From positions 1-36,510 of the forward strand of contig JHUT02000017.1 in NCBI GenBank assembly GCA_000690595.2: a stretch of 36,510 nucleotides of DNA, read 5' to 3'. Positions 5,306 to 31,367 of the stretch are shown one piece after another. A program made the translations under genes and the position numbers. This DNA comes from Natrinema mahii (GTDB lineage Archaea; Halobacteriota; Halobacteria; Halobacteriales; Natrialbaceae). Numbering within the stretch: the first letter of the stretch is position 1; each line of letters opens with the position of its first letter. The notes beneath the pieces were generated by a model, which worked only from the letters and a program-made list of their open reading frames with translations, had not been told where the DNA came from and searched no databases.

Positions 5306-5386
5306 GGGGTTCGTTGCTCGAGGGACGACCAAAACCGTTTGGCTTCTCGCGCGGACGATCAGCGAAGCCAGCGAGGATCCACGAAC

Positions 5387-5470
5387 TATAGTAGCCGCTG
5401 AAAGTCATTGCACACCTGATCGCACGACAGCGTTGCGATCAGTGTGTCAATCGTTTCAACGGCTACTATA
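5387..5470. repeat. 84-bp palindromic MITE-like element, copy 1
   Basis: The element is bounded by TATAGTAGCCG and CGGCTACTATA. Further inverted pairs lie inside: TGATCGCA against TGCGATCA, and CACAC against GTGTG. The whole element can fold into one long imperfect hairpin. Copy 2 at 26399-26482 is in the opposite orientation and identical at 79 of 84 positions by my alignment. It carries no gene. Its right end abuts the last native codon of deoC, so the deoC stop lies inside the element. A target duplication cannot be defined because the ends are themselves TATA. It is probably a non-autonomous, transposase-mobilised element; I do not know the parent insertion sequence. Confidence 0.85.
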
Positions 5471-11663: not shown

Positions 11664-12422
11664 ATGGGGACAGCCAGTGAACAAATAGCGTATTTGTCCC
11701 GGTCTGCGAACCGGCCCCGACTGTTACGATCGATCGCAGATCAACCAGGTACTCCGTCGGATCTCGTTGAACGGTGTTCTATCTCGCGAGCAACTGTTCA
11801 AAGGATTATCGCGGATTTCGAGAATTACGGGTGGGTGATAAAGAACAACGGTAAATACGGTCTCACTGCTGCAGGATCACTTATACTGGAAACATATGAG
11901 GAGACAATAACAAAAATAGACCAAATTATCGAAACAAAACCAGTCCTTCGTCAATTCTCCTCGGGGAATGAACCGCCCGTGCGACCGCTTTCGCAAAGCG
12001 ATATCGTGGTCGCGTCCGACGACCAACCCCACGCCCCGGTGTTCCATTATCGAAAGCAGTTAACTTGTCGCACAATTGAGGCACAGTATATTGTCGATCC
12101 GATCGCAAATCCGACCTTCGATGAGATTCATCATGACCTGTACGAAGAGTGTCAATCTGTAACTGTGATACTTAATTCGAATTTTGAGACTTCTATCGAG
12201 AATAGTGGGTGGTTGGTGGATGTATCTCCGGAGGAGATGTATGTGTACCCTGGAAAACTTTCGGTCGGTCTAGTTATCTCGGAAGATGATGTGCTAACAA
12301 TATTTTACGACGAAGATTGGTCAGTGAAGGTGTGTGTCGACAGTACAAATAAGAATGTCGTACGGTGGTTTACATTATACATGATGGAAAAGAAGGCCGA
12401 CGCGAAACGACTATCCAAATAA
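11664..12422 (+). CDS. winged-helix transcriptional regulator, FilR1-like
   Basis: A 252-residue protein. Residues 1-75 form a winged helix with an ArsR/MarR-like recognition helix (SISRATVQRIIADFENYGWV) and wing (NGKYGLTAAG). Residues 120-250 resemble the FilR1 middle domain found with such helices in many haloarchaeal regulators, including the closing pattern GLVISEDDVLTIFYDE followed by a VVRWFTLYM helix. Codon use is far more AT-rich than in the infB gene, which indicates transfer. It is the first gene of the island and reads toward the halocin gene about 560 bp downstream, so it is a candidate regulator of that gene; this is inference from position only. Confidence 0.8.
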   Translation: MGTASEQIAYLSRSANRPRLLRSIADQPGTPSDLVERCSISRATVQRIIADFENYGWVIKNNGKYGLTAAGSLILETYEETITKIDQIIETKPVLRQFSSGNEPPVRPLSQSDIVVASDDQPHAPVFHYRKQLTCRTIEAQYIVDPIANPTFDEIHHDLYEECQSVTVILNSNFETSIENSGWLVDVSPEEMYVYPGKLSVGLVISEDDVLTIFYDEDWSVKVCVDSTNKNVVRWFTLYMMEKKADAKRLSK

Positions 12423-12985
12423 TCTGAGAATCGAGTTCTGTGTAATTTCACTCCTGCGTGATGTACAGCGCGATGAATTACCATGCGTTCTCTTTTATTA
12501 TGGTCTTCAAATGATCACGTTCTCAGTAACCGGATTCGGTCGAAACCAGGGATTCACCTTGCGGTAGCATGGATCTATTCTCTTTGAGAAGCGACGCAAC
12601 GGAGCGAGTAGTACAGTAGTGCGAGGGGAGACATGTCTCAAACACTGCCTCTACCTCCGTTTATTACGTAACGCATCCGAGGAGACCCCTTCGAACACGT
12701 GGCGGACGACGATTGAGTAACTGTAATCACACGCTCTCGGACAACTGATCGACCAAGATGCTATTGATCGGTGTGGTAAAAGGGTCAGATCGGAACTACT
12801 CGAGACCCGATCTCACCGAGCAATCAGTAAACAGTGGCCGATAGAACGTAGATCGTTGACGTGATGGCGTCAAACCGTATATTAAAACCTATTTTCTCCC
12901 TCCGACACACGTCTCACGACCTGAATGTACATACATCAATTAATTATAATCTGTAGTGTATTATATCTCGATCTGGGTCGCTACC
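12423..12985. other. 563-bp non-coding gap before the halocin gene
   Basis: I see no convincing gene on either strand. The stretch is of mixed composition, AT-rich at both ends. Short GC-richer parts may be decayed sequence, but no protein family is recognisable. The last 60 bp hold the probable halocin promoter. Confidence 0.5.
12959..12966 (+). promoter_or_regulatory. TATA-like box of the halocin precursor gene
   Basis: TATTATAT lies 20-27 bp before the ATG at 12986, a suitable place for leaderless initiation. A second AT-rich element (AATTATAAT, 12941-12949) lies slightly further upstream. The palindrome ATGTACAT at 12925-12932 is a possible protein binding site. Confidence 0.45.
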
Positions 12986-13762
12986 ATGGCAGACCGGAAC
13001 AACGATACTACGTACAACCGTCGAAAGGTGCTTCGAATGGGGACCGCAACCGCAGCGCTAACGACGATCGGTATCGGCTCCGTCAGTGCTGAGACTCCAG
13101 ACGGTTTCGACAAACTGACTGATTCGGAAGCAACGGAAGTGTATGAACGGCTCCAAGACACGCCCGAGTTCCGGAAACTCGAGAGGGAGGTACGTAAAGA
13201 GGGAAATACTCTCGCCGACCACGATATCACCGCGGGTAGAGTCGATGGGAAGGACCGGCTTGAACTCGTCTCAGTCCCGATAGCGGGTTCGAGTGCCGAC
13301 GAGGCATATCTCACGATCGGACGATCGCTTGATTCAGCGGAAGTGACGATTGCGTCGCTCGAGTACGTCGAGAGATCGATCGAACGACCGTCCGCCGATG
13401 TGCAGTCTATTGACGACGTAGAGGGTACAATTACCGCACGCGTCGTCGACGCGCTCGATGGGATGGAAGAAACGGTACACGACGTATCGCTTGACCCCTC
13501 TGGTCCGGCCGCCGAATCGGACGAAATCTCGGTAGCGTTTGATATCGGGTGTGCAGGATGTAAAACCGCGGTCAAGCAAATCTGTCGGATCGGATGCGGA
13601 GCGTCAACTGCTTTCATTTGTGGCGTTCTTACCGGACTCGGGTACATCACGGGCGGTGCGTGCTTCGCATTCACGCAGGCCGCTTGTGCTGCGATTAGCC
13701 AGGTTGGCTGTGATTCCCCCGCCGAAGATATCTGCACTCATCCGAAGCTAGACCTCTGCTGA
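12986..13762 (+). CDS. halocin C8-type bacteriocin precursor with Tat signal
   Basis: A 258-residue precursor. It begins with a twin-arginine signal (RRKVLR at 12-17, hydrophobic 18-33, likely cleavage after A35). Residues 36-182 are an acidic region matching the HalI immunity position in the known halocin C8 precursor. The C-terminal 76 residues form a cysteine-rich hydrophobic domain with ten cysteines at 189, 192, 200, 204, 212, 226, 234, 242, 250 and 258. As I recall halocin C8, its mature 76-residue peptide has ten cysteines with the same first spacings (3, 8, 4, 8, 14, 8). Maturation near residue 182/183 is inferred from that alignment. It would be a secreted toxin against other haloarchaea, with immunity supplied by the same precursor. 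An in-frame GTG at 12956 is less likely because the TATA box overlaps it. Confidence 0.9.
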   Translation: MADRNNDTTYNRRKVLRMGTATAALTTIGIGSVSAETPDGFDKLTDSEATEVYERLQDTPEFRKLEREVRKEGNTLADHDITAGRVDGKDRLELVSVPIAGSSADEAYLTIGRSLDSAEVTIASLEYVERSIERPSADVQSIDDVEGTITARVVDALDGMEETVHDVSLDPSGPAAESDEISVAFDIGCAGCKTAVKQICRIGCGASTAFICGVLTGLGYITGGACFAFTQAACAAISQVGCDSPAEDICTHPKLDLC

Positions 13763-25602: not shown

Positions 25603-26333
25603 CGAGGACGCTCCGGGACGCGATCTACGCCGTTCGGAAGGCCCGTCTGGGCCTCGAGCGCCGCCGGCTCGATTACGGCCGGGAGACGCGCGAGCGATCG
25701 GATCGACTGGCCGACGTGCTCCCGGCGTCGGCCGCCGAACTCCGCGAATACGAGCGCGAATACGACGACCTCGAGTGGTTCCACGACGCCTACGCCGACC
25801 GCGTGGCGGAAATCCACGACGCCGGCGTCGCCACCGACACGACCCACTGGCGCGACGGGGTGACGCTGTACGTCGTCTGTCGCGCGCTCGAGGTCGAGAC
25901 GGCCGTCGAGACCGGCGTGTTGTTCGGCTCGTTCGACGCGCACATCCTCGCCGCGATGTGCGAGAACGGCGGCGGGACGCTGCACGCGGTGGATCTACCC
26001 GGCGGACCGCCGGGGCCGTTCGAGTACGGCCATCTGATCCCGGATCGGTGTCGGGACCGGTGGGAGCTGCATCGGGGTGACGCGCGGGAGGTTTTGCCGG
26101 AGTTGCTCGAGGCGGTCGGCCCCGTCGACCTCTTTTTGCACGACTCGGATCACCGGCTGCCCCACATGCGATTCGAGTACGAGACGGCGTTGGGGCAGCT
26201 CGAGTCCGGCGGGGTGCTAGCCAGTCACGACGTGCGCCTCTCGGGGCTGTTCGATCGGTTCACCGACGCGAACGGGTTGCAGTCGTGCGTGGTCTGTGAT
26301 ACGGGGATCGCGCGGGTTCCGTCGCGACCGTGA
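25599..26333 (+). CDS. class I SAM-dependent methyltransferase-like protein
   Basis: A 244-residue protein whose central part (residues 85-190) has the Rossmann methyltransferase pattern: ETAVETGVLFGSFDAHILAAM as motif I in divergent form, GTLHAVDLPGG as motif II and PVDLFLHDSDH as motif IV. It resembles the Methyltransf_24 type. The basic N-terminal helix (RTLRDAIYAVRKARLGLERRR) may bind membrane or nucleic acid. The start is GTG and overlaps the preceding phosphatase-superfamily gene by 4 bp, so the pair is translationally coupled. Confidence 0.75.
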   Translation: MTRTLRDAIYAVRKARLGLERRRLDYGRETRERSDRLADVLPASAAELREYEREYDDLEWFHDAYADRVAEIHDAGVATDTTHWRDGVTLYVVCRALEVETAVETGVLFGSFDAHILAAMCENGGGTLHAVDLPGGPPGPFEYGHLIPDRCRDRWELHRGDAREVLPELLEAVGPVDLFLHDSDHRLPHMRFEYETALGQLESGGVLASHDVRLSGLFDRFTDANGLQSCVVCDTGIARVPSRP

Positions 26334-26398
26334 CGGAGTGACCGAGTCGCCGTTCACAGCCGTCAGTGCGGTGCGGGTGTCTCGGTCGGTCCCGTAAC

Positions 26399-26482
26399 TA
26401 TAGTAGTCGCTGAAACGATTTACACACTGATCGCAGCGCTGTCGTGCGATCAGGTGTGCAATGACTTTCAGTGGCTACTATA
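26399..26482. repeat. 84-bp palindromic MITE-like element, copy 2
   Basis: It has the same length and the same ends (TATAGTAG and CTACTATA) as copy 1 at 5387-5470. Its reverse complement matches that copy with five substitutions in 84 bp. It lies between the methyltransferase gene and the AbrB/PIN pair and contains no gene. The two copies face each other across 21 kb, so recombination between them would invert the intervening segment. Confidence 0.85.
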
Positions 26483-26644
26483 GATATCGAGGCGACGCTT
26501 GAGGACGACACGCGTACCGAACGATCGTCCCGATCCGGATAAACGCGAGGAGGTCGATCTCTGCCGCCGCGGGAGTCCGTCGGGAAACAGGAGCGGCCTG
26601 ACACCGATGACCAACGAGTGAAGTCGCTCATGTTCATCCACATG

Positions 26645-26653
26645 ATATTTATG
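26645..26653 (+). promoter_or_regulatory. TATA-like box of the AbrB/PIN module
   Basis: ATATTTATG lies 25-33 bp before the ATG at 26678. The in-frame ATG at 26651 overlaps the box, so the later start is preferred. Confidence 0.5.
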
Positions 26654-26677
26654 TCGGTCGAGAACCACACGTCACCC

Positions 26678-26920
26678 ATGACGCCGGAGATAGAGGAAGA
26701 GACGACAGTCAGTGCACGCGGCGGTGTCACGATTCCGTCCCTCGTTCGGGACCAGCTCGGCATCGAGGAAGGGGACAAACTCCGCTGGCATCTCGACGAC
26801 GACGGCGATCTACAGATCGAGGTCGTTCACCAGCGAGAGGGCGTCTTCGACGACGTCGAACCGATCGACATGGGGGAGACGAACGCCGTCGACGCCAAAG
26901 AGGAGTTCGGGATCGAATGA
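26678..26920 (+). CDS. vapB: AbrB/MazE-type antitoxin
   Basis: An 80-residue protein with an N-terminal SpoVT/AbrB swapped-hairpin DNA-binding domain (VSARGGVTIPSLVRDQLGIEEGDKLRW, given here in part: residues 11-37). An acidic C-terminal tail (MGETNAVDAKEEFGIE) would wrap the toxin. It overlaps the PIN gene by 4 bp (ATGA). Such proteins neutralise the partner and repress their own promoter. The gene has core-like GC content, so the module is either old or from a related host. Confidence 0.88.
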   Translation: MTPEIEEETTVSARGGVTIPSLVRDQLGIEEGDKLRWHLDDDGDLQIEVVHQREGVFDDVEPIDMGETNAVDAKEEFGIE

Positions 26921-27339
26921 CGGCGGCCGTCGATACGAGCGTTCTCTTCGCCCATCGAAGCGCGCACGACGAGTTTCACGAACGGGCCACGGAGATCATC
27001 GCAGGGGTAGATCACGGGAAGTTACCGGAACTCCACATCACGGATCACGTCCTCGCCGAGACGCTGAACCTCCTCCTCAACAAGGGGACCCACCGGAAGG
27101 CGACGCAGACGATGGATCTCCTCATCGAAGGGAGCCACTTTCGACTTCTACACACCCCGAAAACGGACTTCAATTCCACGCAGGCCCTCTTTCGCCGTCA
27201 TCCGCATCTCTCCTTCGTCGACGCGTCGATCGTCGCGTACATGCAGCGAACGGGGATCGAGTATCTCTACTCGTTCGACGACGACTTCGACTCGGTAGAC
27301 GGCGTGACGCGAGTGAATTCCGCCGTCGATCCGCGGTAG
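26917..27339 (+). CDS. vapC: PIN-domain toxin (VapC type)
   Basis: A 140-residue PIN ribonuclease with the four acidic positions in place: D6 (AVDTS), E48 (LAETLN), D102 (FVDASIVAYM) and D121-D123 (SFDDDFD). These bind Mg2+ or Mn2+ for cleavage of RNA, often tRNA or rRNA in this family; the target cannot be told here. It is the second gene of a two-gene toxin-antitoxin operon with translational coupling. It is convergent with the PadR-like gene at 27482. Confidence 0.88.
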   Translation: MTAAVDTSVLFAHRSAHDEFHERATEIIAGVDHGKLPELHITDHVLAETLNLLLNKGTHRKATQTMDLLIEGSHFRLLHTPKTDFNSTQALFRRHPHLSFVDASIVAYMQRTGIEYLYSFDDDFDSVDGVTRVNSAVDPR

Positions 27340-27481
27340 TAGTCGGCCCGTCTCGGCTTTGCCGTCGATCACTTGCCCGACCGGAATTCGGCCGGCGCTC
27401 GAGGCCGCCGATCGGGTTCTGTCCCACCGGGCGTCGGTGGTCGATACAGGTCGAGTCGATCCCCCGATAGCGCGCCGTCGG

Positions 27482-28006
27482 TTATCTGCTCGGTTTTTCT
27501 CGAGCGACCCCGTCGATCGGCTCGAGCCGGCGTTCGTAGAGCCCCGCGAGGCGTTCGGCGCGCTGGAGCAACAGCGCGCGCCCGGCGTCGGTGAGCCGGT
27601 AGGTGACCCCCTGATCGTCGCGTTTCGAGAGCAGGCCGCGCCCGACGAGCGCGCGCAGGTTGGGCTCGAGCCGGGCGCGGCTCACTGCCGGATACCAGTG
27701 CTCGAGGGTCCACGCGATCCCGGAGGGGTAGCCGGCGTAGCCGTCGCGCTCGCGGCGGGCGACGGCCTCGAGACAGTCGCGCTGGAAGCCGGTGAGTTCG
27801 ATCCACGCGCGTCGGCCGTCTTTTGACGGGTAGTCGGCTGCTGATGCGTCCGCTCGAGCGGGAGGTTCAAGGTCCCGCGAGTCGTGATCCGACATGGCTT
27901 TCGGGTGGGTTACGGAAGCCACGCGGACCGGTGGTAGGGACACCGGGTCCGCATTTTCGAGGACCGAATCGGGAAGCCGTGGATCCGTCTGGCCTCCGCG
28001 TGACAT
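27482..28006 (-). CDS. PadR-like winged-helix regulator
   Basis: A 174-residue protein. Residues 65-150 are a PadR-like winged helix: ELTGFQRDCLEAVARRE, then RARLEPNLRALVGRGLLSK as recognition helix and wing, then YRLTDAGRALLLQRAERL. The N-terminal 60 residues are polar and low in structure. The start at 28006 is chosen because GAGGAGG lies about 8 bases before this ATG on the minus strand. Most other genes in this window look leaderless, so a good ribosome site is unusual. A second ATG at 27895 has no such site. It is divergent from the repressor-like gene at 28125, with an inverted repeat between them. Confidence 0.75.
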   Translation of the reverse strand: MSRGGQTDPRLPDSVLENADPVSLPPVRVASVTHPKAMSDHDSRDLEPPARADASAADYPSKDGRRAWIELTGFQRDCLEAVARRERDGYAGYPSGIAWTLEHWYPAVSRARLEPNLRALVGRGLLSKRDDQGVTYRLTDAGRALLLQRAERLAGLYERRLEPIDGVAREKPSR

Positions 28007-28013
28007 ACTGATA

Positions 28014-28020
28014 GCCTCCT
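28014..28020 (-). promoter_or_regulatory. Shine-Dalgarno site that decides the PadR-like start
   Basis: On the minus strand AGAGGAGG ends about 8 nt before the ATG at 28006. A TATA-like CTTATGATA (minus strand, 28047-28055) would start a transcript near 28025, leaving a leader that just contains this site. Confidence 0.6.
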
Positions 28021-28033
28021 CTAACTTAAATTT

Positions 28034-28051
28034 TGATACCAGATAGTATCA
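28034..28051. promoter_or_regulatory. inverted repeat, candidate operator between divergent regulators
   Basis: TGATAC, six bases, then GTATCA: a perfect 6-bp dyad. It overlaps the TATA-like box of the PadR-like gene and lies about 75 bp before the divergent gene at 28125. Its place suits autorepression by a dimeric winged-helix protein. Confidence 0.45.
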
Positions 28052-28093
28052 TAAGCTCACTTTCAAGTATTAGCATCCGAGAGAGCACCCCCA

Positions 28094-28101
28094 GTTATAG
28101 C
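28094..28101 (+). promoter_or_regulatory. TATA-like box of the repressor-like gene
   Basis: GTTATAGC lies 24-31 bp before the ATG at 28125, which fits a leaderless start. Confidence 0.45.
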
Positions 28102-28124
28102 GGCAGATGGCGATTCGCTACTGA

Positions 28125-28397
28125 ATGCGCCCGCTGGTCTCGTGGATGACGAAATCCGATCCCGCGTTGCTCGAGTTCCTCGAGGAAACGGGGATAGCGA
28201 TGCCGCCAGCGGTGGTTTCGTACAATATCGACGGCGTCTCTCATCCGACGGTGAAGCGCCGTCTGCCGGTCTTGGAAGACCACGGCCTTCTCCGGAAAGT
28301 CGACGACGACCGAGGCTACTACCGCATTACGGATCGGGGTCGCGCGTATCTCGAGGGCGAACTTGATGCCGAGGACTTAGAACCGAGTGAAGACTGA
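28125..28397 (+). CDS. winged-helix repressor-like protein (PhiH1-repressor type)
   Basis: A 90-residue winged-helix protein with the phrase WMTKSDPALLEFLEE at the start, then the recognition region SHPTVKRRLPVLEDHGLL and wing RGYYRITDRGRAYLEGEL. This is the layout of the small haloarchaeal repressors related to the phage PhiH1 repressor, many of which sit in chromosomes as stand-alone genes. The ATG at 28125 is backed by a TATA box; MTKSD at 28146 is an alternative. It is divergent from the PadR-like gene and just upstream of a truncated paralogue. Confidence 0.8.
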   Translation: MRPLVSWMTKSDPALLEFLEETGIAMPPAVVSYNIDGVSHPTVKRRLPVLEDHGLLRKVDDDRGYYRITDRGRAYLEGELDAEDLEPSED

Positions 28398-28426
28398 GTA
28401 GCGGTGATCCGGTGACTGGATACAGA

Positions 28427-28520
28427 ATGCGACAGCCACGGGTGGACTGGATAACGCGGGCCGACGATGCGATCCTCGAGTTCCTGCTCAACGAGGGGAA
28501 CCGGCCTCTCGTCGCGAATT
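28427..28520 (+). pseudogene. truncated second PhiH1-repressor-like gene
   Basis: Thirty residues starting MRQPRVDWITRADDAILEFL match the N-terminus of the same repressor family (compare WMTKSDPALLEFL in the gene just upstream). The similarity stops near LVANF at about 28520. From there the sequence becomes AT-rich and belongs to the convergent PIN-like gene that ends at 28525. The recognition helix and wing are absent, so the gene is broken. The break marks the left boundary of the inserted module. Confidence 0.65.
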
Positions 28521-28524
28521 TTTC

Positions 28525-29184
28525 TCACGAACGAACTGCAAGGGAAACGACGTCCTCAAGCGCGGTTTGGCCAAGTATGAGTTCTCGATATCCTTCGTCA
28601 ACCAGATCACGAGGATTGACTGTTGCTAGTTCCGTAATCTCTCCTCTTTGCTCAACGACATCGTGTGCATCAAGACAAATCCGACGGTCATCCCAAGGAA
28701 TCTCAGAGAGTGCTTCATCGATTTCGGAGTAATCGTTTTTACGACTCCAAATTTCGGTTCTTGCTAGCAGCCACTGCCGGTTTTCGATGGCATTCTGTTC
28801 GATGTCACGTGAAAGTTCTCTGAGTCGCTTAATCAGCTCTTCCAACTGAATGAAATTTGTTACCTGGTTTCGGTAGAAATCGTGGAGTGACGTACTGGCG
28901 TTGTTATTTCCAACCAGGTTTTGGCGAATTTGTGAAGTATCCATGGAATCCAATTGGCCTTCGTAATCGGAGTTCTGGAGTTGGAAAATATGATCGCGAA
29001 TCCCGTCCGCAATCTCCTCAGCGAGATCAGGTTCTCTGTTCAGGTATTCATCCTCAACATGGTCGGAGATATACAACGAGAATCCGTTCTCCTCCAGATA
29101 TTCTCTGCACCGGTAATGGTGTGTGTCGTCCCGAAAACAGTAGCCGAGAGCGACACCAGTATCAAGAAACGAGGCATCAGTCAT
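28525..29184 (-). CDS. PIN-like nuclease of an AT-rich two-gene module
   Basis: A 219-residue protein read as a divergent PIN domain from its acidic residues: D8 (FLDTGVALGY), E44/E46 (HVEDEYL), D172 (CLDAHDVV) and D193 (NPRDLVD). A long helical insertion lies between residues 50 and 165, so the protein is much larger than VapC toxins (about 130-140 residues). It starts 3 bp after the stop of the upstream partner gene, so the two are co-transcribed. Codon use is AT-rich and unlike the flanks, which points to recent transfer. RNA or DNA as target is unknown. Confidence 0.7.
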   Translation of the reverse strand: MTDASFLDTGVALGYCFRDDTHHYRCREYLEENGFSLYISDHVEDEYLNREPDLAEEIADGIRDHIFQLQNSDYEGQLDSMDTSQIRQNLVGNNNASTSLHDFYRNQVTNFIQLEELIKRLRELSRDIEQNAIENRQWLLARTEIWSRKNDYSEIDEALSEIPWDDRRICLDAHDVVEQRGEITELATVNPRDLVDEGYRELILGQTALEDVVSLAVRS

Positions 29185-29187
29185 CGA

Positions 29188-30129
29188 TTAGTGGGACCGA
29201 AGCCGTTCGATTTGTTCTTCAATGGTACGAGAGTATGCGCGTGAAACGCCGTCCAGTTCGGTGCTTCGAGAACGATTACCGAGTAGCTCTCGTCTCGTTT
29301 CCTGGACGTTGTTTGTGAAATCCGACTTCACGTCAGCTGCATCTTCCTCCCAATCAGCCAGTCGGCTGTCGGAAATGTGTTGGCTGTAGTCGAATCGAAG
29401 CACTACTCTACTGAGAGCAAAAATGAAGTCGTCGAGGAATTCCGCGATTCGACTGTATTGGACAGATTGATCAAGCATGAGTCGGACCGTGTCATCCCAT
29501 CGGAGATAGAGCGCCTTCATTTCCTCATGACGCCCTTCATCTTCGGGGTATGCCCCCACCATTGTATCAAGTTTCTGTCGAAGATACTCTTCGTTCGATT
29601 CCACCGTCTCCTTGGTTCCTCCTTCGGTAAAGTTCTCCAGACGTTGCTGGCTTCCAAGATCGATTGTGCTTAGTAGCCAGCGTAGTTCACTGTACTCTTG
29701 AATGAAACTGTTCTCAGCGTGTTCCTCATACTGATGTTGCTTAATCGCCTCAACATTCTCCCTTCCAAACTCTCGTACAGTCCACTCTACGGAGTCTGTA
29801 ATCAGTTCGAAACCCTCTTTGGACACGTCAAATGCCTCTATGTCCAATGATTTCGGGATATATTGTTGGCCATCCCAGCCCATTGCTTGAGGTGCATTAT
29901 AGAACCGCCCGGAGAATTCGTGCTCATTCGTGAGTTCTCCGTACATATACCAGTAGCGGGCAAGTCCAACATCATATTCGTGTGTCTCGAGGAGGTTCCG
30001 ATCCGCGACACAACAAAGTTTGAGAAACTTCGAACGAGAGATCTGATCGTCGCTCTGATTTTTTAGCTCCCGGAGCAGATGCCAGCCTAAGAACTCCGGT
30101 TCGCCGAACTCCGGTTCCTCCTCAGACAT
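29188..30129 (-). CDS. partner of the PIN-like nuclease, possible Panacea/SocA-like protein
   Basis: A 313-residue protein from the ATG at 30129; an in-frame TTG at 30141 is less likely. The N-terminal part (residues 10-75) has a pattern recalling Panacea (DUF4065, SocA-like) domains: SRSKFLKLCCVADRN, then a hydrophobic stretch GLARYWYMYGEL and a loop before a small strand. This match is weak and from memory. The C-terminal half is helical and charged, perhaps coiled coil (EEYLRQKLDTMVG, ESVEDDAADV-like helices). It precedes the PIN-like gene with a 3-bp gap. Panacea proteins are antitoxins to diverse toxins, so the pair could be a toxin-antitoxin or defence module. The function remains unproven. 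Confidence 0.6.
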   Translation of the reverse strand: MSEEEPEFGEPEFLGWHLLRELKNQSDDQISRSKFLKLCCVADRNLLETHEYDVGLARYWYMYGELTNEHEFSGRFYNAPQAMGWDGQQYIPKSLDIEAFDVSKEGFELITDSVEWTVREFGRENVEAIKQHQYEEHAENSFIQEYSELRWLLSTIDLGSQQRLENFTEGGTKETVESNEEYLRQKLDTMVGAYPEDEGRHEEMKALYLRWDDTVRLMLDQSVQYSRIAEFLDDFIFALSRVVLRFDYSQHISDSRLADWEEDAADVKSDFTNNVQETRRELLGNRSRSTELDGVSRAYSRTIEEQIERLRSH

Positions 30130-30314
30130 TTTATTCGTCAAGCGCTTCGAAAGGGCTACAGTTAATGTTTCCCCTATTATGCAGTCATTTTGAATAGGAT
30201 CAATGAGAGTACAAAATTCAGTATAATCTACTACCGACTGACATCCACTAAGAACACTCTACCTAATTCTGTTCCTGGTTTTTGGTATCTCAGGATGCAC
30301 CTGCCCGAATCCGT

Positions 30315-31367
30315 TCATTCGAACACCGGCTCAGTAAACAGATCGCCGGCCGGCGACAGCCCCGACAACGCGTCCGCGGCCAGCACCGCCGCCCCGCCGG
30401 TCCACGTCGGCCGCTCGCCCGGCCAGAACTCCTCGTCCTCGAACTGATAGCCCGTCCAGAAGACCCCCTCGTCGTCGGTCCACTGGAACAGCCAGTCGTA
30501 GATCTCACGGGCGCGGTCGCGCTCGCCGACGGCGGCCAGCGAGACGACGAGCTCGCAGGACTCGGCGACGGTCACCCACGGTTCGTCCGCGACGCAGCGA
30601 CAGCCCAGTCCCTCCTCGAGGTACCGATCCATCCCGGCCTCGAGCCGCTGTCGGCCCGGGTCGCCGGTCACGACCCCACAGAGGACGGGGTAGAACCAGT
30701 CCATCGCGTAGCGGGACTTGCTCTCCCAGGTGCGGTCAAAGCGGTCGGGCCGCTCGCGGATCGCCTCGCCGAGGTCGGTACGGGCCGCGAGCCAGCGCTC
30801 GCGGGCCTCGTCGTGGCCCAGCGTGTCCGCGATCGCCGCGCCACAGGCCAGGCTCTTGTAGAGGGAGGCACAGCCCGAGATCAGTGCGTCCTCGTAGGGC
30901 TCGCCGTCGGGGCCGACGGTCCAGTAGATCTCGCCGGTCGGAGCCTGCTGGCGGCGAGCGAACGCGAGGGCATCGCGGACGGTCGGCCACAACGACTCGA
31001 GGAAGTCCCGGTCCTCGGTACACAGGTAGTGATGCCAGGCGCCGACGGCGACGTAGGCGCTGCGGTGGGTTTCCTTGCGCGGCTCGTCGCCGGCGTGGGC
31101 CCCGTCGTTGTCCTCGGCCTCGCCGTAGGTCGCCCACAGCGCCCCGTCGTCGTGCTGTTCGTCGGCGATCCAGCGGTACGCGCGGCGGGCGGCGTCCTCG
31201 CGGCCAGCGATCGACAGCGCCATCGCGCTCTCGACGTGATCCCACGGGTCGGCCGGTCCCTCGGGATACCAGAGGATGAGCCCGTCCGAACGCTGGGCAC
31301 GTTCGATGTGATCGACGGCGGGCTCGAGCCCCCAGTCGGCAAGCGACTCGAGCGTGGCGTTGCTCAC
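30315..31367 (-). CDS. alpha-toroid (glucoamylase/prenyltransferase-like) protein
   Basis: A 350-residue helical protein with repeated hairpins containing acidic and aromatic residues: DPWDHVESAMAL, WHHYLCTEDRDFLESLWP, SKSRYAMDWFYPVLCGV and FQWTDDEGVFWTGYQFEDE. This is the pattern of six-hairpin glycosidases and related toroids. It is often annotated in haloarchaea as a prenyltransferase or phenyltransferase domain protein. A carbohydrate substrate is more likely, given the neighbouring glycosyltransferase. The start is a GTG at 31367 that overlaps the methyltransferase stop (GTGA). Confidence 0.8.
   Translation of the reverse strand: MSNATLESLADWGLEPAVDHIERAQRSDGLILWYPEGPADPWDHVESAMALSIAGREDAARRAYRWIADEQHDDGALWATYGEAEDNDGAHAGDEPRKETHRSAYVAVGAWHHYLCTEDRDFLESLWPTVRDALAFARRQQAPTGEIYWTVGPDGEPYEDALISGCASLYKSLACGAAIADTLGHDEARERWLAARTDLGEAIRERPDRFDRTWESKSRYAMDWFYPVLCGVVTGDPGRQRLEAGMDRYLEEGLGCRCVADEPWVTVAESCELVVSLAAVGERDRAREIYDWLFQWTDDEGVFWTGYQFEDEEFWPGERPTWTGGAAVLAADALSGLSPAGDLFTEPVFE

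Follow-up and report, generated by a model that had tools for sequence, protein, structure and literature searches.

Panacea systems (PanA-PanT, PF13274/DUF4065; PMC8832971, PMC10440598) are the closest described relatives of the locus reported here. In the accessible parts of these two papers, they are mobile two-gene operons with diverse toxins, in which the antitoxin combines a Panacea domain with extra C-terminal elements. The family is paired with many toxins (PMC8832971), and the nuclease pairs tested include PIN/VapC-like toxins with various antitoxins (PMC8832971, PMC10440598). A Panacea antitoxin joined to a PIN toxin is, as far as the main texts of this literature go, not described; the supplements may list a methanogen version. 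From the toxin side, the nearest system is VapBC, which shares with our locus the PIN fold, the acidic active-site pattern and an operon of neighbouring genes led by that of the antitoxin. The type VI system SocAB likewise has a Panacea-type antitoxin, SocA, which serves as a proteolysis adaptor, and SocB is not known to be a PIN protein. Besides VapBC and RelBE, archaeal toxin-antitoxin systems have been little characterised.

The window analysed, 36,510 nucleotides of contig JHUT02000017.1 of Natrinema mahii, carries two genes that probably form a type II toxin-antitoxin operon spread by horizontal transfer and composed of a PIN ribonuclease toxin and a Panacea-like antitoxin. Gene A (29188-30129, minus strand) encodes 313 aa from an ATG at 30129 and is the first gene of the operon; gene B (28525-29184, minus strand) encodes a 219-aa PIN-fold protein, the predicted ribonuclease toxin. 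The ORF coordinates place both genes on the same strand with a spacer of 3 bp, and the GC content falls to 48-51% (about 49%) over 28-30.5 kb, against 63-71% on both flanks, in full agreement with the AT-rich two-gene module recognised by the first-pass annotation. Since each gene has many homologues, and since Ka/Ks lies at 0.05-0.2 for both A and B between near relatives, they are not chance frames. Upstream of A, a putative promoter element, aggggaaacattaact (30160..30175, minus strand, about 35-50 bp from the gene), is the sole conserved block in six close relatives; conservation 5' of A spans merely about 60 bp, and the flanks beyond diverge. For both A and B, Pfam, NCBIfam, PADLOC and PHROGs yielded no match that passed a cut-off or deserved mention, and profiles of A, B and Panacea, compared with PDB sequences, picked up chance hits only. 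The haloarchaeal pair is unannotated, no database naming either protein, and the present assignment makes two hypothetical-protein families nameable for annotators.

To B we confidently assign a VapC-type PIN fold, on the strength of an AlphaFold2 model built from 15 homologues (pLDDT 87.7). The model aligns with VapC2 of Rickettsia felis (3zvk_B) with a VIA Z of 13.0 over 123/133 residues at 2.7 A, and its elements follow the order expected for PIN domains (beta1-alpha-alpha-beta2-alpha3 ... alpha5-beta4). About 96 residues of the model fall outside this alignment. Curated PIN HMMs gave no match above cut-off for B, the PIN_3 match having an E of 0.061 and the best family member an E of 0.001 (PIN); among the B homologues, weak or sub-threshold matches were to PIN_3, PIN, PIN_12 and PIN_8. 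Remote PIN members often miss curated HMM cut-offs. Compared with the PF01850 VapCs of its own genome, the B profile showed a weak match and no clear sequence relationship, and the PIN call therefore rests on structure and motifs. These uphold the earlier description of the downstream protein as PIN-like, PIN similarity being found in a confident model and a structural alignment. As a separate observation, the N. mahii genome holds twelve PF01850 PIN matches, eleven of them above cut-off, so that B is one among many PIN proteins.

The active site had been proposed to consist of D8, E44/E46, D172 and D193, and most of it stands. D8, which ends strand 1, is invariant among intact B members; E44 and E46, at the start of helix 3, alternate between members, and one of them or D is present in nearly all; position 172 is D or E. 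The fourth position fared less well: residue 193 is H in several members, and position 190 (N or D) is better conserved. The proposal did not list D166, which is invariant. Either D166 or D172 may be the canonical third acid, the former agreeing with the D..I...A spacing and the latter with the distance to the T-x-N motif. Equally absent from the proposal were A173, H174 and T188, all invariant in haloarchaeal members. In the secondary structure of the model, PIN helix 3 is separated from the third acidic motif by a helical expansion (in the region of residues 71-160; 28705..28974, minus strand). The second acid (E44/E46) and the third motif (D166/D172) lie about 120-128 residues apart, against 56 in Shigella VapC numbering. 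The reported helical insert is thus seen in the model, but the net gain over VapC between these motifs is about 65-70 residues, not 100. Compared with VapC, B is longer by about 70-85 residues and carries the helical expansion.

The same structural comparison also brought up HARP, the minimal protein-only RNase P, which processes tRNA 5' ends and has a PIN fold with a helical insertion; it aligns with the model over 113 residues at a Z of about 9. B could on this basis be a physiological RNA-processing enzyme, and A its stable subunit instead of an antitoxin. The VapC match is clearly better, however, the pair is sporadic and mobile, unlike a conserved housekeeping enzyme, and orphan copies of B decay (see below). 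We consider the RNA-processing reading highly improbable.

The partner of B further separates the locus from VapBC, being a 313-aa Panacea-like protein and not one of the short antitoxins of the AbrB, RHH or Phd type; family libraries returned no DNA-binding family in A. The AlphaFold2 model of A is confident for about residues 8-151 only, which we delimit as the Panacea-like N-terminal domain (29677..30108, minus strand). Its top fold match is 7yk3_B, a DarTG chain (Z 10.3, 130 residues, 4.2 A, 14% identity), and the next row has a Z of 6.2. This match is a lead only: a Foldseek search of the PDB with A found nothing significant, the locus has neither a macrodomain nor DarT, and DarTG likeness is limited to this one structural match. 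The literature on 7yk3 chain B does not settle its relation to Panacea, and no Panacea structure was found in the PDB by sequence. With E values as high as 10 allowed, PF13274 matched neither A nor anything else in the genome that carries it, and at the position aligned to the GPV signature, which matters in a tested PanA according to the accessible part of PMC8832971, A reads YWYMYGE (YWYxYG).

The link to Panacea comes from methanogens. A profile search for B across the wider phylum recovered Methanosarcina-type homologues, and a separate search with PF13274 found Panacea proteins directly upstream of B homologues in the same Methanosarcina-type genomes. Eight such Panacea-PIN loci were inspected, and one of the Panacea proteins, checked by hmmscan, scored above cut-off (E 1e-8). 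Haloarchaeal and methanogen B proteins can be aligned across 196 columns (P 2.6e-17), and the C-terminal domain of A matches that of the PIN-linked methanogen Panacea proteins (P 4e-7). Five other proteins encoded upstream of B homologues (L076, L082, L086, L088 and L089) match A strongly (P 7.6e-26), and at the position of the YGE of A, L076 bears HGPVVP and L082 HGPL. L082 bridges both groups, its PIN protein being 39% identical to the Panacea-linked PINs and its partner belonging to the A family. Taken together, these loci tie Panacea to PIN nucleases and form a natural gradation, with Panacea proteins that bear GPV at one end and relatives that lack it at the other.

For the N-terminal domain, we aligned the A family by hhalign with Panacea proteins that have no PIN link. 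The score was 37.9 (prob 71), whereas an unrelated family scored 16.8, the reversed profile 12.9 and the best of 40 column shuffles 12.7. Variants of this alignment gave 26-31.5 or 47.6 (overall 26-48), with a probability of 71-82 in some and 7-22 in others, the full Panacea set giving 7. With moderate confidence, and from sequence comparison, we thus regard A as a remote relative of Panacea; it is termed Panacea-like, and not a member of the family, because the PF13274 match and the GPV motif are both missing. The suggested resemblance of the upstream protein to SocA/Panacea holds in this qualified form, supported by the homologous Panacea-PIN loci, the C-terminal match and the N-terminal profile. 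No sign of protease delivery, as practised by SocA, was seen for A and B. Those two missing features, the moderate N-terminal score and a best fold match to a DarTG chain would also be expected if A were an unrelated helical protein, joined by chance to a related PIN. Against this, its C-terminal domain matches that of genuine Panacea proteins whose neighbours belong to the PIN family of B, the intermediates L076 and L082 match A strongly while carrying GPV or GPL at the aligned place, and the hhalign score stands well above the reversed, shuffled and unrelated nulls; an unrelated origin of A seems unlikely to us.

Pairing of the two genes is conserved. Among 391 haloarchaeal genomes, A was found in 25 and a B match in 25, and both were present in 22, compared with about 1.6 genomes expected by chance (25 x 25 / 391). 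This amounts to about 6% of the haloarchaeal sample, and methanogens have a related pairing. In these 22 genomes A and B adjoin, without exception in the order A then B, and the gaps in the intact pairs measured run from -4 to +20 bp. This neighbourhood survey, recommended when the module was first noted, gives the proposal of a toxin-antitoxin pair its third support, beside the PIN fold and the homologous Panacea-PIN loci. The distances in the A and B trees are correlated (mirror-tree r 0.971; maximum 0.58 in 5000 permutations), and the two genes have been inherited together. A scan of genome contigs with the single B sequence gave 0 matches, and one with the B profile 15 loci. As an aside, a second haloarchaeal type of the pair (L086, L088, L089), detectable by profile only, has PINs of about 250-260 aa and divergent A proteins.

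The Ka/Ks values given above indicate that A and B are both under purifying selection. Between the window and its nearest copy (G192), A differs by 2.5 synonymous and 7.5 nonsynonymous changes and B by 1 and 4; relaxed selection was considered on these figures and rejected, as too few changes separate the two copies. The lack of clear constraint in this one comparison could still suggest a decaying remnant, or a selfish passenger without present function in its own genome. However, neither frame is disrupted and no catalytic residue is missing, Ka/Ks is low wherever changes suffice, and the flanks vary where the genes do not, which leaves this reading very unlikely.

The A-B pair is mobile, as seen from a variable slot, an empty site and a cut neighbour gene. 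The slot that holds the module (26315..30326) is absent as a block from the nearest relatives lacking the pair: in G091 and G025, alignment to the window (91-94%) breaks off at 26314-26324 and resumes at 30327, the two flanks being about 0.33 kb apart, and their flanking gene is 94% identical in protein sequence to that of the window. More distant genomes (G143, G302) have other genes in the slot, between a winged-helix gene and a glycosidase-like gene. Immediately beside B lies a remnant of such a winged-helix gene (28427..28519, plus strand), which forms the left boundary of the A-B insert. Positions 28425-28519 are 88% identical in nucleotides to the 5' end of the intact gene in G143 (L159:5014-5313), and the match ends at 28519, 5 bp short of the B stop codon, which confirms the broken repressor reported next door. 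Halobacterium hubeiense and Halococcus dombrowskii have A-B pairs on large plasmids as well.

Within the same 4-kb block missing from G091 and G025, a canonical pair at 26618-27339 (plus strand) joins a MazE/AbrB antitoxin (E 1.6e-10) to a PIN toxin (PF01850, E 7e-18). A near-palindromic dispersed repeat of about 88 bp, MITE-like and ending in CTATAGTAG / CTACTATAG, is present at 26396-26483 and 5386-5470 and recurs roughly 40 times or more across the genome. In G302, the slot holds an AT-rich segment (L160:4257-7450; 40.9% GC) that encodes three unknown proteins without a Pfam match, a possible defence cargo.

A sporadic, mobile pair in variable slots could also be an antiviral sensor-effector, in which A would sense a viral product and free B to cleave host or viral RNA or DNA, leading to abortive infection. 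Panacea has been proposed as a sensor in the accessible part of PMC10440598, and OLD-type ATPases, integrases or other defence-like genes lie near some loci. By contrast, the 84 neighbours checked are mostly housekeeping genes, PADLOC has no match for A or B, and no virus or phage relative hints at an arms race: no relative of B was found in viral contigs, and none of A in viral contigs or phages. An antiviral role is possible, although nothing here speaks for it specifically, and we hold the sensor-effector reading to be a tentative alternative, on balance doubtful. A general association with defence islands was rejected, no defence system recurring among the 84 neighbours. Among 165 neighbours in 19 loci, no third gene recurs, save a few in three closely related islands; to be conserved as two genes, with no constant companion, is a feature of type II toxin-antitoxin operons.

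Type II systems are further marked by toxins that do not stay intact without their antitoxin. The first-pass annotation had named a lack of PIN similarity, or solitary, non-toxic homologues, as evidence that would speak against its proposal, and the results bear out neither. Three copies of B were found without A (L040, L050, L070). In this small sample, all three are truncated at the N terminus, with D8 gone. A, on the other hand, persists beside a broken B (G217) or without any B. The partnerless A proteins differ from the paired ones at the C-terminal tail, STELDGVSRAYSRTIEEQ (residues 288-305; 29215..29268, minus strand), a putative toxin-binding element. Its motif, roughly [VIL][SAG]..[YF][SND], is kept in 23/23 compared A proteins with an intact B, and the tail is absent or degenerate in 4/4 partnerless ones, namely three Halorussus records and G124 (L004, L005, L013, L015). 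These four form a single clade (support 100/99). Loss of the tail in the partnerless clade suggests that the tail binds B, a case built on a single loss event; such a loss fits a tail that serves the toxin, as in the Corynebacterium PanA, whose C-terminal helices bind its toxin according to the accessible part of PMC10440598. The tail offers a specific element for binding tests. On two Halorussus plasmids, the partnerless A gene is flanked on one side by ABC transporter genes and on the other by a Rieske-protein gene, and may have been repurposed.

We thus favour a toxin-antitoxin operon that would work as follows. B is predicted to be a VapC-fold PIN endoribonuclease that cuts RNA and is toxic, and its helical expansion probably sets the RNA target or docks A. 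A, translated from the first gene of the operon, would neutralise B by holding it inactive. The active-site face of B is most likely covered by the tail of A, either by itself or together with the helical domain next to it (about residues 175-285). The N-terminal Panacea-like domain would probably be the folding or sensory part and release B on a trigger, which might be infection or loss of the locus; this sensing step is proposed on account of the hypothesis put forward in the accessible part of PMC10440598. A bolder version, which we think rather unlikely, makes the GPV-less A proteins sensor-antitoxins that act through a detachable tail, as an antiviral switch of haloarchaea and methanogens, with the partnerless clade repurposed after loss of tail and toxin.

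Counting against the toxin-antitoxin operon are the missing PF13274 match and GPV motif of A, its moderate N-terminal match, and PIN matches of B below the cut-offs. So do some methanogen B proteins that are preceded by unrelated small genes. Distant B relatives occur in Methanobrevibacter and Methanovirga (L071:5031-6154, L072:9327-10675, L074:5816-6971), and the genes that precede them, of 161-218 aa, showed no detectable similarity to A or Panacea; these short genes are possibly other antitoxins.

Elsewhere in the window, an ORF at 12956-13759 (plus strand) has a sub-threshold match to a halocin C8-like N-terminal domain (E 0.00056). This candidate halocin gene lies in an AT-rich stretch (43-55% GC), downstream of an HVO_A0261/FilR1-type regulator at 11664-12422.
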